DNA of 24,650 bases, taken from IMG/VR virus record IMGVR_UViG_3300035034_004496, positions 1-24,650 of that record, one strand, 5' to 3'. Positions 1 to 9,146 of this stretch are shown in pieces. The translations under genes were made by a program, and so were the position numbers. The stretch's first letter is position 1; each line of letters starts with the position of its first letter. Below the pieces are notes generated by a model, which was not told the origin of the DNA, did not search any database, and worked only from the letters and a program-made list of their open reading frames with translations. This DNA comes from a virus.

Positions 1-540
1 TCATTTCCAGCCCTCGATCTCGACACACGCATCCAGCAGCGCCTGAAAACACACGCGTGCGGCCTCTACGCAATCGGCGCGGTGGCGAAGCTGGTTGAGG
101 TACGCCATCTCAGAGGGACGGTCACTGTAACCCAGCGATGCGCGCGGCAGATCAGTGCGTAGGCTCTTTGCAATTACGGCCCCCCCCATCAGGTTACCGC
201 CGACGATGACGTAGATCGTGCCGGTGATGCGGCGCTCATGCTCTGAGCGGGTCAGCCCCTCTGCGCCCATCCATGCGACATGATCCTTGATTGCAACAGG
301 CAGGCGCGGTGGAATAGCAAGCTCGGCAATGTCAGCCTGATATTCATCGTGGCGGTCAGACGCGGGCAGCAGATGAGTGCGAATTGCATCGTACATCGCG
401 GCCTTCATAGCGCACCATCCCATGTACCAGAGGTCTGTTGGATCGCCGTCCGACATGGCGCGCCCCACCACCGTCCGCTCAACGGCGTGATGCAGATCGA
501 GAGTTGCAGCGTGCAGCGGGCCGAGATACCTGCCCATCAT
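1..540 (-). CDS. Heme oxygenase-like protein (179 aa)
   Basis: The N-terminus carries the heme oxygenase proximal-histidine signature A-T-x-x-x-H-x-x-x-E (A12, T13, H17, E21). The same spacing surrounds the heme-ligating His of mammalian and bacterial heme oxygenases. Residues 107-124 read G-T-I-Y-V-I-V-G-G-N-L-M-G-G-A-V-I-A. This fits the Gly-rich distal helix (GxxYVxxGSxLGG) that covers the heme, with G115, G119 and G120 in place and the usual Ser replaced by Asn. The C-terminal helix (about 155-176) has the usual A-x-x-x-F pattern. Length is near that of small bacterial heme oxygenases (about 180-200 aa). Heme oxygenases open heme to biliverdin, CO and Fe2+ using electrons from a reductase. 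The start (ATG at 540) overlaps the stop of the upstream gene by 4 nt (ATGA), so translation is coupled to a late tail gene. Family membership is read from motifs. Enzyme activity is inference; a non-enzymatic use of the fold is possible. Confidence 0.72.
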   Translation of the reverse strand: MMGRYLGPLHAATLDLHHAVERTVVGRAMSDGDPTDLWYMGWCAMKAAMYDAIRTHLLPASDRHDEYQADIAELAIPPRLPVAIKDHVAWMGAEGLTRSEHERRITGTIYVIVGGNLMGGAVIAKSLRTDLPRASLGYSDRPSEMAYLNQLRHRADCVEAARVCFQALLDACVEIEGWK

Positions 541-2981: not shown

Positions 2982-3461
2982 TCAGGCTCCTACGGGCTGG
3001 TGCTGTTCGGCGCTGCCCTCTGCGGCGGCGCTGGTCAGGTGGATCACGCCAGCGGTCTGCGCGCGGATCTGGAGGCGGTCGCCGTTGGCGCTGGCAAGTG
3101 TCAGTTTCAGAAGCTGCTGGCCCGGTGCCGGGTGCAGATAGGTATCGCGTGCGGGGATCGTCACCCGAAGCTGTGAAACCTCGCCAGCCGGGGCGACCGC
3201 GCCCTCAACCAGCGTGCGGATCTCAACCCAGCAATCCGCGCCGCTGGTGTTGTGCAGCATCAGGGGCGCGAGGATTAGGGCATACCCCGGCTGGATACGG
3301 CGGTCTGCGTTGGCCGGGTCGCGCTCGGGCCAGTCGTTATTCGGGTCGGGCGCGCTAAAATCATTGGCCTCAAGGATGGTGGTCCATGCAGTGGGCACCC
3401 CCGCCACTGCTATGCGGATAGGCTTGGAGGTTGCGGGTTGAGCTGTGGTAATGCGTGCCAT
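2982..3461 (-). CDS. Small beta-rich tail protein, possible fibre connector (159 aa)
   Basis: The protein is a short, mostly beta-rich chain without a signal peptide or membrane segment. It has Gly/Ala-rich turns and an acidic Pro-rich stretch around residues 34-52. The start ATG shares one base with the stop of the upstream fibre gene (TAATG), so the two are translated in series. The receptor-binding gene begins one base after its stop. Being placed between a beta-helix fibre and a repeat-bearing tip protein suggests a connector or accessory fibre subunit. I do not recognise the family, and the role is inference from position only. Confidence 0.75.
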   Translation of the reverse strand: MARITTAQPATSKPIRIAVAGVPTAWTTILEANDFSAPDPNNDWPERDPANADRRIQPGYALILAPLMLHNTSGADCWVEIRTLVEGAVAPAGEVSQLRVTIPARDTYLHPAPGQQLLKLTLASANGDRLQIRAQTAGVIHLTSAAAEGSAEQHQPVGA

Positions 3462-5818
3462 TAGAACTGTCCTGCTGCTATGAGTGCGGCGCGGCGCGCC
3501 AATGGGTTGAACGTGCGGGGAACCGGGGGGCCTTCAAACTGCCCTGTTACGGGGTTCACCGAAGCCCCACCCGGCAGGAACATCTCCCCGCGACCATCGA
3601 GGCCGGAGAATTGCACCTGCCCCAGATTGCGCTGAATGATGCTGTCCTTAACGGCGCGGAAAGGCCGGACGAAGGCCCGCGCGTTGACGCCGCCGAATGG
3701 CTTTTCAAACTGCGTTTGGTGTGCCCGGATGATCGACGGAACTTTCTGAAACGCCGGATTTGTCACAGTGGCGTTGAGCGCAGCAATCTGCGCGGTGACC
3801 TGCGCCTGCGCTCCTGCCGAGATCCCCAGCCCGTTGATGGCGTTGCGCATGGCCGTGAACGACGCCACGAAGGGCGCGGCGGCTGGCGCAACAAATACCC
3901 CGTGCGGAAACAACCCCTGAGTGAAAATCATCAGGCTTTCTTGCGTACCGCCGATCAGGTCAAACTGGATCGCGTCCACAAGTATGCCCGCGTCCCGCGC
4001 TGTTTTAGTGGCATCGGACCCCGGCGCAGCGGCAACAGCGGCAGCAACTATCGCGGCCTTGTTCGCGGCCACAACCGCAGCCGCAGCAGGGTTCTTTGCC
4101 AGGGTGCCGGAAACGGCCGCCAGCCGTACCTGATTGCGGAACCCGTCCGACCACAGCGTGTAATCGCCCATCTGCGTCGAACAGTTGTTCAGCAGCGCCT
4201 GCCCGCCCTCCAGCGCCATGACGTGCTTGTGCGACCAGAGCATCACAGCGTTGATCAGGTTTACAAACGCCTCGCCCTTAACCACACAGCCGACACCGTT
4301 GGGCGCGCTGTTCGTGCTGGCCTCAACCATGATCTGTGCGAAAGGTGAGTATCCGCTTGCCACATTGCCATCCGCCAGCACCAGCCCCGGCCCGCGCGGT
4401 ATGCCGGGGTTTCCGTTCAGGGGATCAAGCGGGGGCGGCATAAGCGTCGGCTGCATGGCGCGGTAGTTGACGCAGTGGTCCATGTAGAGCGCGCGGTAGA
4501 TCACGGCACCGGGCCGGAATGACATCAGGAAGCCCTCAGTCGGGTTGTCAAAGTCATCGACCTGCCAGCCCTGCGCCGACATATTCCGCAGCATGAAGCC
4601 GCTCCCGCCCCGGAACACGTTCTTTTCCTCATTGCCCGACGTGGGCGCGACCACCACAGAGCGCTGGCCCATGATGCCCACGACCTCGGTGCAGTTGTCG
4701 GACACGTCGATGTGCCCGCTTGTCTCGTACCTGCCGGGGTAAACGACGATGGAAGCCGGATCACCGCTGGCCTCGACCAGATCTCGGGCTTTCTCGATAG
4801 ACCTCACCGGACGCCGCAGGCTCTCGCCATTGTTGCTGTCGCTGCCGCCTTCAGAGACGTAGAACGTGCGCGCCACGGTGAAGTCAGGGATGTTCTCGGG
4901 ATCGAATTTGAAGTCCCTGGGATAGATGATGTTCGGGGCAGGCACAGTCGCCGCCTGCGGCTGGCGATCCAGCAGCAGCACATCACATTCACTGACATGA
5001 TCAGTGCCAAAAAAGCGGATCCATGGCCGGACATAAAGAGTGCCTTCCGGCGCGAGCACGTCGTCATCCAGAGCAGCACTATGGGCGAGGGCGCGTGCAA
5101 CGATCTTACGGCCTTCCGAGGCGACCAGTGTAGTATCTGTCGTGAAGGTGATCCCCGAGATAAACGAGCGGTCCTTGTCGAAGAAATCGACACCAGTAGT
5201 GACGCCGTCATTGGCCGGATCGATGCTGTTTGTCGTGCGGTAATACGAAGCGATGAACTCCAGCCGCTCGCCCTGCTCCATGGGCACAAGTGACAGCGTC
5301 GAGACCGTCAGAGGATCTGCAGCCCGCACGGCCTGACCATGGGGCCCCGCCACTATGACTGCGCCGCCCAGAGAGAACCGCTCTGGCACATCACCGGGCC
5401 TGTGGCGCAGAGCGATCTCCTGATCCACCAGCGCCTGACCCGCCTTTGAGATCCAGTCCCAGCGGCCCCATGCGTCGTTCCAGCTGTACCGGCCCGCGTT
5501 GGGAACAGTTGCCCCGTCATATCCTGTTGCTGTTGCGTCGAGGTGCTCACCCGTATCGCTGAGCGGCACCTCAGCACCCGTGCCGTCCGCACCGCCATCC
5601 AGATCCAGCAATTCAGCCCATGTGCCGCGCACGAGAAGACCCGCTGTAATCTGGCCGCGCAGGCCCTCAAGCGCCGCCGCAATGGCCCCGCTTCCCACCA
5701 GCTGAACGCCCAGATTGCCGATGGACTGGCGCGCCGTTGATCCGTCCCTGTTGCCCAACACGCTGTCGAGCGTCGGGGCATTCGGCAGACTGGTCGTTTT
5801 AACGCCGTTTTCAGCCAT
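3461..5818 (-). CDS. Tail fibre / tailspike-like protein with parallel beta-helix (785 aa)
   Basis: An N-terminal region (1-60) that may anchor to the tail is followed by a beta-rich part (about 60-300). A right-handed parallel beta-helix begins at R-T-F-Y-V-S-E-G-G-S-D-S-N-N-G (about 317-331), the usual entry of DUF1565/pectate-lyase-like phage fibres, and runs to about 570 with repeated short strands. Residues 575-600 are a nearly pure Ala/Val/Lys helix, and the tail end (700-785) is Arg- and Pro-rich. An ATG at 5848 is possible, but ATG 5818 is preferred: AGGAG at 5826-5830 lies 7 nt upstream, inside the stop region of the hub gene. No catalytic residues of a depolymerase can be assigned by eye. 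Binding or cleaving surface polysaccharide is plausible but unproven. Confidence 0.85.
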   Translation of the reverse strand: MAENGVKTTSLPNAPTLDSVLGNRDGSTARQSIGNLGVQLVGSGAIAAALEGLRGQITAGLLVRGTWAELLDLDGGADGTGAEVPLSDTGEHLDATATGYDGATVPNAGRYSWNDAWGRWDWISKAGQALVDQEIALRHRPGDVPERFSLGGAVIVAGPHGQAVRAADPLTVSTLSLVPMEQGERLEFIASYYRTTNSIDPANDGVTTGVDFFDKDRSFISGITFTTDTTLVASEGRKIVARALAHSAALDDDVLAPEGTLYVRPWIRFFGTDHVSECDVLLLDRQPQAATVPAPNIIYPRDFKFDPENIPDFTVARTFYVSEGGSDSNNGESLRRPVRSIEKARDLVEASGDPASIVVYPGRYETSGHIDVSDNCTEVVGIMGQRSVVVAPTSGNEEKNVFRGGSGFMLRNMSAQGWQVDDFDNPTEGFLMSFRPGAVIYRALYMDHCVNYRAMQPTLMPPPLDPLNGNPGIPRGPGLVLADGNVASGYSPFAQIMVEASTNSAPNGVGCVVKGEAFVNLINAVMLWSHKHVMALEGGQALLNNCSTQMGDYTLWSDGFRNQVRLAAVSGTLAKNPAAAAVVAANKAAIVAAAVAAAPGSDATKTARDAGILVDAIQFDLIGGTQESLMIFTQGLFPHGVFVAPAAAPFVASFTAMRNAINGLGISAGAQAQVTAQIAALNATVTNPAFQKVPSIIRAHQTQFEKPFGGVNARAFVRPFRAVKDSIIQRNLGQVQFSGLDGRGEMFLPGGASVNPVTGQFEGPPVPRTFNPLARRAALIAAGQF

Positions 5819-5825
5819 GGTTGAA

Positions 5826-5830
5826 CTCCT
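5826..5830 (-). promoter_or_regulatory. Ribosome binding site deciding the fibre start
   Basis: AGGAG lies 7 nt before ATG 5818 and overlaps the TAG stop of the hub gene (5829-5831). It supports the start at 5818 over the in-frame ATG at 5848, which would overlap the hub gene and shows no comparable site. Confidence 0.75.
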
Positions 5831-8800
5831 AGTAAATGGTGGTTGCAAAGGGGCCGGTCAGCGGCCCTGCGATGTCGTCGTCATTGATCGGCTCGACCCA
5901 GTACTGCCACGCGCCCTGATCAACGCTGGTGGGCGTCTCGGCGTACAGGGTGATGTCATCGACGGACCCGTCGAAGGCCGCGTCTGCGCTCAGGCCGAAG
6001 GATGTGTTGCCGCTCAGGGCAGTGAGGCGGGTAAAGGCGAGGCCGGTGCTGCTGATGGCGGTGCCGGTGACAGCGGTGCCGCCGGAGAGGCCAGCGGTGA
6101 CAGTGCCCGATGTGACACCGGAGACGATGACCGCAGCGCGGTATGTCCGCCCGGCCTCCAGTGCCACCGCCTGCGACAGCGCCCCTGCGGAGGGGCCCAT
6201 GTGGCTGGCCTTGCCCCCGGCGATGCTCCAGCCGTCGCCCAGCGTCCAACCGGTGGCACTGTCGAATGTGCCGTTGCCCAGCAGCGTGCTGCGGGTGCCG
6301 TCCCCGTCGGTGTAGGAGAGTACGGAACCCGGCGAGACCGGCAGCGGCGCCCCCAGTGCGTGAATGCTGCGGTCCAGAGGTACGCCAGCGGGTGCCCGGT
6401 AGATCCGGATCAGCGCCGGGGCGTCCGTGCCCGGAACGGAGACGGTGAGCACCGCATGGCCAAGCCCGCCGGTGATCGTGACTGAACCCGCATCAATCGC
6501 TGCGGGGACAGCCGCATCCTCTGCGCCGATGGTCACCTCAGCGGTGGCGGTGTACTCCCCCGGCGATGCCCCCGCGAAGGCCCGCGCGCGCAGCTCGACC
6601 GCGTTGCCTGCCACATACGCCGGGACCGACACGCCCGACGATGCTACGGGCACTGTCAGCACAGTCCAGAGGCTCGTCCCGGCCAGCCTGTGCTCCAGAG
6701 CATACGTGCTGACGACAGCTGTTGATCCGGTCCCAGGGCGCAGCAGCACCATCAGGCCATCAGGCGCGCCCGTGCCCGCGATCCCCGTGGCAATCGATGC
6801 AAACACCGGCGCAGCAGGCACACCAGCCGCAACATCGACTTCAGCGCCAACACGGCCATCCCAGGCGGGCGCCACCTCAGCGTCGGTCAGCCGGTCGATC
6901 TCCTCCGCCGCAGCCACCATGATCAGCCGCGAGGAAAAATCATCACCGGCCTCGATGCCGCGAATGCGCAGGGCAAGGCTCTCTGTCTGGATCGGACCGA
7001 TGTGCACCACGTCGCCCACCTGCGGCATCTCGCCGGTGCCAGTCAGCAACAGCGCGGTGGTCTCCTCAGCGGTGGCCACCAGACCTCGGACCATGGAAAC
7101 CCCGACCACGTCCTCGCCTTCCTCACCCTCCGCGAAGACCCGGAACCGGATGCCGTAGCCCTCGGGGATGACGGTGCTCTCGTCGATCTCGGCCAGACGG
7201 CCCATGACACTTTTGACCCGTGCCGCCAGCTGTGTTCGGCTCAGCACGTCAAAGCTGCCCATCACCAGATCGCCCCGCGTGGCCACCCGCGCGGTACCGG
7301 ACTGAATAACGCTGAAGTTGTCCGCCCGCAGCGTAAGCTCGTACATGCGCCGCCGCGCCTCGATCCAGATCTCGACCGGGTCCGTCTTGCCCGGCATATC
7401 GACACTTTCGGTCAGCCGGATATCGCCGGTATGTCCGATCCACGGCACGATGCGCTCGGCTTCCTCGTGATTGTTCGTCTCGTCGCGGAACCGGATGCGC
7501 AGGCCATCGGGCGGCTGGAAATAGTTCCGCGACCATTCGAACTGCTCCGAATTGCGCGGGTTGATATGATCGATCACCAGCGTCTGGGGCCGGTCGATGA
7601 CCACGCCCCAGCGCACCCCGTCATGATGCGGCGTGGCCCGCCCCGCACCGCAGATCGCGGCCAGCATATCGCCCAGACCCTCGGGCGCATCATGCACCCG
7701 GTCATATTTGAGGCCCTTTTCAGCGCACCACTCGTACCAGTCGGCGATCTGATCCATATCGATGCCGTCGAGCGTCACCGGATAGGGGTTCTGCGGGCCC
7801 ATCAGCGCGGACAGATAGGCGCTGGCCGGATTGCGGCTGTAGCCGGTGACCCACTGGCCGTCCTCACGGACGAGGCCCTCCCGCTCGAGCAGGCAGTTGA
7901 AACTGTCTAGGGTCCCGTTGAGCTGATAGGTCGCCCGGATGCGCACCGCGATCAGCGCCAGCGGCTTGTCCAGGTTGATCGGGTACTCAGGCCGGATCGA
8001 CTGGATCGCCGCCAGCATGACCGTGTCAGACACCTGCGCATTGGTGCTGTCGTCGTTCATCCGCGTGACTTCGATCTGCCAGCGCCCGCGCGTGGGCAAG
8101 GTCCAGCTGTGCTGGCGCAGCATGCTTTCCTGCCGCTTGCCGGTGATGTTCAGGACCGCGACATCGGTCCAGTCGCCGACGCCGTTGAGCCGCGCCCGGA
8201 TCCGCACGGTGACACCCTGCACCGCCAGACGGCCCTTGTCATCGATCCAGAACAGCCCGTTGGGAAAGCCCAGAATGACCGAGGCGCGGGCGGAGTTGCT
8301 GGCGGTGAACCGTACGGCAGGGGCCTCGACGCTTGGCGCACCCTCAATCACATTGCCATTGATGTCGCGCGGACGCTCGCGCACCAGCTGGACGCCCGCC
8401 CCCTCCTCGAGGACCTGTTCTGGATAAATCGTGACCGGCGCATCCCCGGGCCGACCCTCGCGCGTCTCGATGTCGATGTCGCGGTAATCGCTGACCGGCG
8501 TGTCCCCGATGCGCAGATCCGAGATCCGCACCGGACCGTAACCTGCACAAAACAGCGCCACGATGAACTGATCATCGCCCACAACCTCCGTATGGCTCTG
8601 TGCCGCAAAGGGCGGGGCATAGCGGTGCCTGCCCAGTGCAAACGGCACCGGCGCACCGGGCCGGATATCATTGCGCCAGCCGTCGATGCGGTAGACATCC
8701 CGCCGCTCGATGACGTCCGGCGTCTCGATGGGTATCAGCGCATTGATCAGCAGCGTCCCGAGGATCGACAAACCGGCCACGGCCAGCGCCAGCCCAAACG

Positions 8801-9146
8801 ATCCAGCCGCCAGCGCCGGAAACAGGACCGGCGCCAGCGCCGCCGCCGCAATCGTCACAACAGCCAGCAGCACAGTCCGCAGGGTGTCCTTGCCGGGAAT
8901 GCCACGGATCACGACTGTGGTCCCGGGCTTCGGGCGTACCTGCGGCCACAGGCGCTCCTCAATGACGGCGCTGCCCTGGGCAGTGGTCAGCGTGACCCGC
9001 AGATGACCGGCGGTGGGCTGCTGACCCGGTGCCACCCGCGCCACGATCTGCGCCAGCGTCAGGCCGCAGGGCAGATCCAGAGTGACCCGTGCAGCGCCGG
9101 GATCCAGCACCGGCGCAAAGATTACAGGGAGCGCAGAAGCGGTCAT
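5829..9146 (-). CDS. TipJ/J-like central tail hub, host specificity protein (1105 aa)
   Basis: The protein resembles the lambda J / TipJ family, which closes the tail tip, anchors the tape measure end and carries host-range parts. A hydrophobic segment at about 91-140 (two membrane-helix-like stretches) follows the short N-terminal domain, as is common in this family. The hub core, with its beta-barrel-like domains, spans about 145-770. Two fibronectin-III-like domains follow (about 776-875 and 877-950). The second seems to be interrupted by a jelly-roll-like insert (about 954-1069) containing N-G-T-F-D, G-W, G-G-K-A-S-H and a final S-V-D-D-I-T-L-Y, the pattern of CBM-like modules. The chain then resumes with Q-Y-W-V-E-P-I-N-D-D-D. 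The ATG overlaps the NlpC/P60 stop by 4 nt (ATGA). Family size is typically 1000-1300 aa. Confidence 0.9.
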   Translation of the reverse strand: MTASALPVIFAPVLDPGAARVTLDLPCGLTLAQIVARVAPGQQPTAGHLRVTLTTAQGSAVIEERLWPQVRPKPGTTVVIRGIPGKDTLRTVLLAVVTIAAAALAPVLFPALAAGSFGLALAVAGLSILGTLLINALIPIETPDVIERRDVYRIDGWRNDIRPGAPVPFALGRHRYAPPFAAQSHTEVVGDDQFIVALFCAGYGPVRISDLRIGDTPVSDYRDIDIETREGRPGDAPVTIYPEQVLEEGAGVQLVRERPRDINGNVIEGAPSVEAPAVRFTASNSARASVILGFPNGLFWIDDKGRLAVQGVTVRIRARLNGVGDWTDVAVLNITGKRQESMLRQHSWTLPTRGRWQIEVTRMNDDSTNAQVSDTVMLAAIQSIRPEYPINLDKPLALIAVRIRATYQLNGTLDSFNCLLEREGLVREDGQWVTGYSRNPASAYLSALMGPQNPYPVTLDGIDMDQIADWYEWCAEKGLKYDRVHDAPEGLGDMLAAICGAGRATPHHDGVRWGVVIDRPQTLVIDHINPRNSEQFEWSRNYFQPPDGLRIRFRDETNNHEEAERIVPWIGHTGDIRLTESVDMPGKTDPVEIWIEARRRMYELTLRADNFSVIQSGTARVATRGDLVMGSFDVLSRTQLAARVKSVMGRLAEIDESTVIPEGYGIRFRVFAEGEEGEDVVGVSMVRGLVATAEETTALLLTGTGEMPQVGDVVHIGPIQTESLALRIRGIEAGDDFSSRLIMVAAAEEIDRLTDAEVAPAWDGRVGAEVDVAAGVPAAPVFASIATGIAGTGAPDGLMVLLRPGTGSTAVVSTYALEHRLAGTSLWTVLTVPVASSGVSVPAYVAGNAVELRARAFAGASPGEYTATAEVTIGAEDAAVPAAIDAGSVTITGGLGHAVLTVSVPGTDAPALIRIYRAPAGVPLDRSIHALGAPLPVSPGSVLSYTDGDGTRSTLLGNGTFDSATGWTLGDGWSIAGGKASHMGPSAGALSQAVALEAGRTYRAAVIVSGVTSGTVTAGLSGGTAVTGTAISSTGLAFTRLTALSGNTSFGLSADAAFDGSVDDITLYAETPTSVDQGAWQYWVEPINDDDIAGPLTGPFATTIY

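Follow-up and report, generated by a model that had tools for sequence, protein, structure and literature searches.

A divergent heme oxygenase superfamily protein encoded behind tail-fibre genes in a fragmentary phage genome

Heme oxygenases (HOs) of phages are already known from cyanophages and from some pelagic and freshwater phages, in which they often occur with bilin genes. Cyanophage Ho1 (e.g. that of P-SSM2) and the HemO of the pelagiphage Mosig carry the HO-1-type motif GDLSGG with its catalytic aspartate, and the Mosig hemO gene adjoins a gene for a PcyX-type bilin reductase. The vHemO of the freshwater phage CB_2, for which a non-cyanobacterial (Methylocystis) host is proposed, is biochemically active and was found with alaS and pcyA genes (PMC11480375). 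These other phage HemOs are proven enzymes, and iron supply for the infected cell has already been discussed for them (PMC11480375). Among cellular proteins, human HO-1 and HmuO are the solved structures closest, by profile and by fold, to the protein described here, and the BphO/HemO type includes pa-HO and nm-HO. The soybean enzyme GmHO-1, which is active, has Ala-His in place of the Gly-Asp pair of human HO-1 and another hydrogen-bond network, while the D140H substitution in the human enzyme strongly reduces its activity (PMC7948506).

The new protein, P0001, is encoded in the record IMGVR_UViG_3300035034_004496, a fragmentary phage genome of 24,650 bases that was analysed over its entire length and is called the window below. 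On its minus strand lie, in order, a truncated terminase, a portal, a Mu-F-like protein, a protease, a Mu-type major head protein and a lambda-type tail with tape measure and the central tail fibre J (1105 aa, 5829-9146, phrog_31 E=3.9e-102). Among cultured phages this J is nearest to those of the Rhodobacterales phages RcapMu, RS1, RC1, vB_ThpS-P1 and vB_PeaS-P1, with 42-47% identity. A 5.7-kb contig of metagenome 3300012037 (L002) is part of the same phage, its J fragment being 100% identical over 766 aa, and stops short of the HO gene.

J is followed on the same strand by a 795-aa tail fibre or baseplate-like protein (3461-5848) with PHROG tail matches, a 159-aa gene of the tail-fibre cassette (2982-3461), a 604-aa DUF285/BspA-like repeat protein (1166-2980, Pfam DUF285 E=8.3e-7), which is a putative tail fibre or receptor-binding protein, a 209-aa gene of the tail module (537-1166) that matches PHROG 14311 and PHROG 6034, both of unknown function, and finally the HO-like ORF of 179 aa (540 to 1, with ATG and TGA). 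The start codon of the latter (540-538) overlaps the TGA of the ORF 1166 to 537 by the four bases ATGA (537-540), so that its coupling to the last of the tail genes, noted in the preliminary description, can be read directly from the sequence. The GC content of the ORF (0.61) is in line with that of the window (0.63). Nothing downstream is visible, because the TGA of this ORF lies at bases 1-3 of the record.

The relationship of P0001 to heme oxygenases is too distant for direct searches. Against the Pfam model PF01126 it scores 11.7 bits (E=0.22), below the curated cut-off of 23; used alone it had no match in cultured phages, plasmids, NCBIfam, PDB sequences or IMG/VR, and no PHROG profile matched it at E<=0.1. 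The entry route was a weak match in a Rhizobium genome, which led to a 179-aa BphO-type HO and from there to a profile of 36 alphaproteobacterial BphO-type HOs. When applied to 25,361 ORFs from loci of related phages, this profile selected P0001 as the sole ORF (E=9.4e-4). When P0001 was searched against 397 genomes of one family, three good relatives emerged (E 6e-10 to 7e-15), and alignments seeded with these three added a further 49 IMG/VR contigs and two more genomes. PF01126 is matched by all 11 family members scanned (best E 6.1e-6; 21.7 bits for the member on contig L199), and to PHROGs the family members have only weak matches, with best E values of 0.075-0.34. Of the 27 matches that a profile of 12 phage members obtained among PDB sequences, 26 are HOs, with human HO-1 as the best (2.7e-5).

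Structure prediction against known HO structures, which the preliminary description had suggested as a check, leads to the same superfamily. The AlphaFold2 model of P0001 built on a 12-sequence family alignment has a pLDDT of 95.5 and a pTM of 0.90, and the best 50 of its 56 Foldseek matches in the PDB (E<=0.001) are all HOs, with TM scores to 0.77 and probability 1.00; HO-like diiron oxygenases (HDO), TenA and PqqC do not occur among these 50 best of 56 matches. As the alignment consists of phage sequences only and no template was used, the fold is not copied from a known HO; as the model made without an alignment is unusable (pLDDT 41), the fold claim rests on that family alignment. In a viral structure library two good matches only were obtained, both from uncultured Caudovirales phages and named in UniProt Haem oxygenase-like and Heme oxygenase. 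The 179-aa ORF thus belongs, as a divergent member, to the heme oxygenase superfamily, as the preliminary description had supposed, and its placement of H17 on the proximal helix and of the glycine motif on the distal helix agrees with the family-profile alignment and the fold match. The helices in question span residues 8-21, with H17, and 98-126, which is kinked at its glycines and bears G114-G120; from these helix assignments and the fold match, H17 and the glycine motif are predicted to face each other.

The two motifs of P0001 read L9-H-A-A-T13-L-D-L-H17-H-A-V-E21 and Y110-V-I-V-G114-G-N-L-M-G-G120. Among the 26 non-redundant family members, L9, T13, D15, H17, E21, W42, R63, D70, Y110, G114, G119, G120, R152, F165 and E174 are invariant. 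H17 (codon at 490-492, minus strand) aligns with the proximal ligand H25 of human HO-1, and E21 (codon at 478-480, minus strand) occupies the position of E29. Y110 and G115-x3-G119-G120 align without gaps with Y134 and G139-x3-G143-G144 of the human protein. The distal glycine motif GGNLMGG is encoded at 181-201 on the minus strand. Position 115 is Ala, Gly or Ser across the family, and position 116, which corresponds to human D140, is His, Asn, Thr or Tyr in every one of the 26 (His in 23). Most members thus have Ala-His at positions 115-116, as in GmHO-1 (PMC7948506), which was compared at these positions only, and the window copy has Gly-Asn. The distal network of D140 is therefore absent from the family, a feature that, given the Ala-His of the plant enzyme, does not define all HOs.

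The window copy is an outlier in its own family. It has R14 changed to Leu, H23 to Thr, D54 to Arg, H116 to Asn and H135 to Ser, at positions that are 88-96% conserved, or 92-96% when position 116 is set aside, and its branch in the trees is long (1.25-1.36). R14 is kept in 24 of the 26 members. In HO-1 the heme propionates are bound by K18, K22 and R183, and it is unsure whether the invariant R152 is equivalent to R183. With its heme-contact positions conserved, the family looks fit for heme, and the window copy is less certain; with N116 and its other changes, the latter may be a slow enzyme, or a protein that binds heme without cutting it.

The reading preferred here, to which a probability of about 0.55 is given, is that P0001 is a phage-borne accessory protein of the heme oxygenase superfamily that would bind and probably degrade heme, and would be made late together with the tail-fibre genes. 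The substitutions at the D140 position, together with the activity lost by the human D140H mutant, are also what would be expected if proteins of this family no longer cut heme and instead sequester, shuttle or sense it, or act as a weak peroxidase. This alternative is unlikely, because an active plant HO has Ala-His at the same two positions, the HO glycines and the proximal histidine are invariant, and one relative adjoins a bacteriophytochrome gene (bphP), where biliverdin is needed.

Phylogenetic trees separate the phage clade from 34 BphO-type proteins of bacteria, with support of 100/99. Both groups have in common a proximal A-T-x3-H, D-L near residue 70, G-x-x-Y...G, and a Phe and an Ala in the last helix, but BphO proteins have the motif EGSxLG, at which the phage family is one residue longer and has no Glu. 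P0001 cannot therefore be counted as a member of the BphO subfamily. Membership in the clade of cyanophage and pelagiphage HOs is rejected as well: when Ho1 and Mosig HemO are added to the tree, these two form a clade of their own (100/99) and the new clade remains intact (97/92). Like the new clade, Ho1 and Mosig HemO are phage-encoded and have the HO fold, the same proximal helix and the distal motif G-x3-G-G, with no gap between the motifs in the alignment. In place of their GDLSGG, proteins of the new clade carry GAH or GGN; the clade is without a bilin reductase and is mostly located behind tail fibres. CB_2 vHemO is set beside the new clade by its published description. With human HO-1 and HmuO the family has in common the spacing Y-x4-[GAS]-x3-G-G, but the identity of the phage protein to them is 16-19%, D140 and R136 are replaced, and it is about 35 residues shorter. 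The deep placement of the clade is unsure, as its branches are long.

P0001 and its relatives are found in at least four types of phages, on contigs of siphovirus, podovirus and myovirus type, with the HO gene behind tail-fibre genes and often overlapping them by 1-4 nt. Besides the window, these are siphovirus modules with gp13-14-15 genes of the phiJL001/GTA type (L201, L205, L206, L218-L220 and L252-L256), podovirus-like contigs (L199, L200, L202 and L227) that encode a family A DNA polymerase or an internal virion protein and in which small membrane and endolysin genes usually come after the HO gene, and a phage with a contractile tail and Baseplate_J (L222). The order is reversed in one bacterial genome (L225), where the HO gene lies ahead of the fibre genes. 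DUF285-type proteins precede it in many of the loci, and the hosts, where they can be guessed, are largely alphaproteobacterial. A low-GC lineage (L229, L231, L232 and L236-L245) has the gene away from fibres, so the suggestion that it might be confined to tail loci holds for most relatives and fails for this lineage. A Dps/ferritin gene was found in four of the five low-GC contigs searched, which are the only such cases among the 29 family records; in the contigs with both genes mapped (L242:12088-12531 and L231:6158-6601), some 1.5-2 kb separate the HO gene from the Dps/ferritin gene downstream of it.

Two side observations concern genes next to the HO gene. A glycosyltransferase/TPR gene lies between the fibre genes ahead of it in one locus (L207:767-1831), and a PIN-like/helix-turn-helix gene pair that by eye resembles a toxin-antitoxin system is found immediately upstream of it in the bacterial genome mentioned above (L225:197-1260, G1057).

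This recurrent slot in unrelated phages, with its gene overlaps, could also indicate that the helical HO fold is reused, without heme, in an assembly factor of tail fibres or in a virion component. The window and a prophage (L195) have homologous fibre genes at 3461-5848 (E=2.8e-167) and 2982-3461 (E=2.5e-30) in conserved order, the latter being also represented in cluster C3 in the same slot, which fits such a role. A conserved five-gene cassette was nevertheless rejected: gene order matches and homology covers these two fibre-side genes, but none was detected between the 209-aa gene of the window and its 195-aa counterpart in the prophage. A structural role is judged improbable, since the residues that never vary belong to the heme pocket and one phage lineage has the gene away from tail genes and near a Dps gene. 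The fibre genes in front, moreover, vary in kind while the HO remains constant, so no fixed client is seen. The gene is an accessory one, because no HO homologue was found in the J-containing loci of the relatives of the window phage (isolates, genomes and IMG/VR), for which reason the idea that it belongs to the regular gene set of this phage group was discarded.

A placement behind fibre genes recalls the Ferrojan-horse idea as well, according to which the HO would supply iron to iron-loaded tail fibres. Three large related fibres (L248, L249 and L251) have four HxH motifs each, against about 0.2 expected, and are candidate iron-binding fibres on this count. Within the window, however, HxH motifs are absent from the DUF285 protein and from J, and the 795-aa fibre has one; most of the 46 large ORFs adjacent to HO genes are without any. 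Iron loading of the adjacent fibres was consequently rejected, and this explanation of P0001 is hardly credible.

The possible use of biliverdin is of a different kind. Bacteriophytochromes have biliverdin as chromophore. One bacterial sequence (G381) falls inside the phage clade, and its gene is directly upstream of a bacteriophytochrome gene (PAS_2, L190:534-2004), an arrangement that points to a phage-type HO beside a receptor that uses biliverdin. The phytochrome gene ends early beside a transposase gene, so the locus may be decaying and gives a hint only. Biliverdin made by the phage HO could then charge a bacteriophytochrome of the host, or feed a bilin reductase, in agreement with the PcyX-type neighbour of Mosig hemO and with the charging of a phytochrome by phage HemO together with PcyA (PMC11480375). 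Such modulation of a bilin pathway is highly unlikely for P0001: a bilin reductase (PF05996) is found in none of the 29 family records, in line with the preliminary description, which had seen no obvious partner, and no phytochrome gene is present among the annotated ORFs of the window, which is a fragment. The missing bilin reductase also disfavours pigment synthesis.

If P0001 is the heme-binding and probably heme-degrading protein proposed above, this accessory gene behind the tail-fibre genes would be expressed late and alongside them. Heme of the infected cell would be held between helix 8-21, with H17 as axial ligand, and helix 98-126 with G114-G120. Electrons from a ferredoxin or flavodoxin of the host would permit its opening to biliverdin, CO and Fe2+. 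The useful outcome for the phage could be iron, biliverdin and CO, or plain heme removal, and it would not be a light-harvesting pigment. The uses named in the preliminary description (iron or bilin release, tuning of a host bacteriophytochrome, a structural use of the fold) were put forward there as inference, a standing that they keep here. The member beside bphP and the Dps/ferritin gene near the HO gene in one lineage count for an enzyme; the changes of the window copy, the loss of activity in human D140H, the missing bilin reductase and the few fibres with HxH count against it. A bolder version, which is rather doubtful, would make the family a phage-specific branch of the HO fold whose distal site is rewired, with His or Asn instead of the catalytic Asp, carried across unrelated phages as a standard transferable element of tail-fibre modules and acting on heme at host recognition, assembly or lysis in some way other than ordinary iron release.

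Among 199 genomes of the Ruegeria-containing family of the Rhodobacterales, just 3 have a match to the Pfam heme oxygenase model; a canonical HO may therefore be missing from most such hosts.

What is new here is a separate, phage-centred clade of HOs that is unlabelled in PHROGs, lacks bilin partners and recurs behind tail-fibre genes. A search conducted mostly outside subscription journals found no publication that describes HO genes in tail-fibre modules. The family includes a range of natural substitutions at the D140 position, which are of use for studies of HO chemistry. If active, it would represent a widespread and so far unlabelled route of phages to the heme of their hosts during lytic growth, a question that the prophages with the gene make directly testable.
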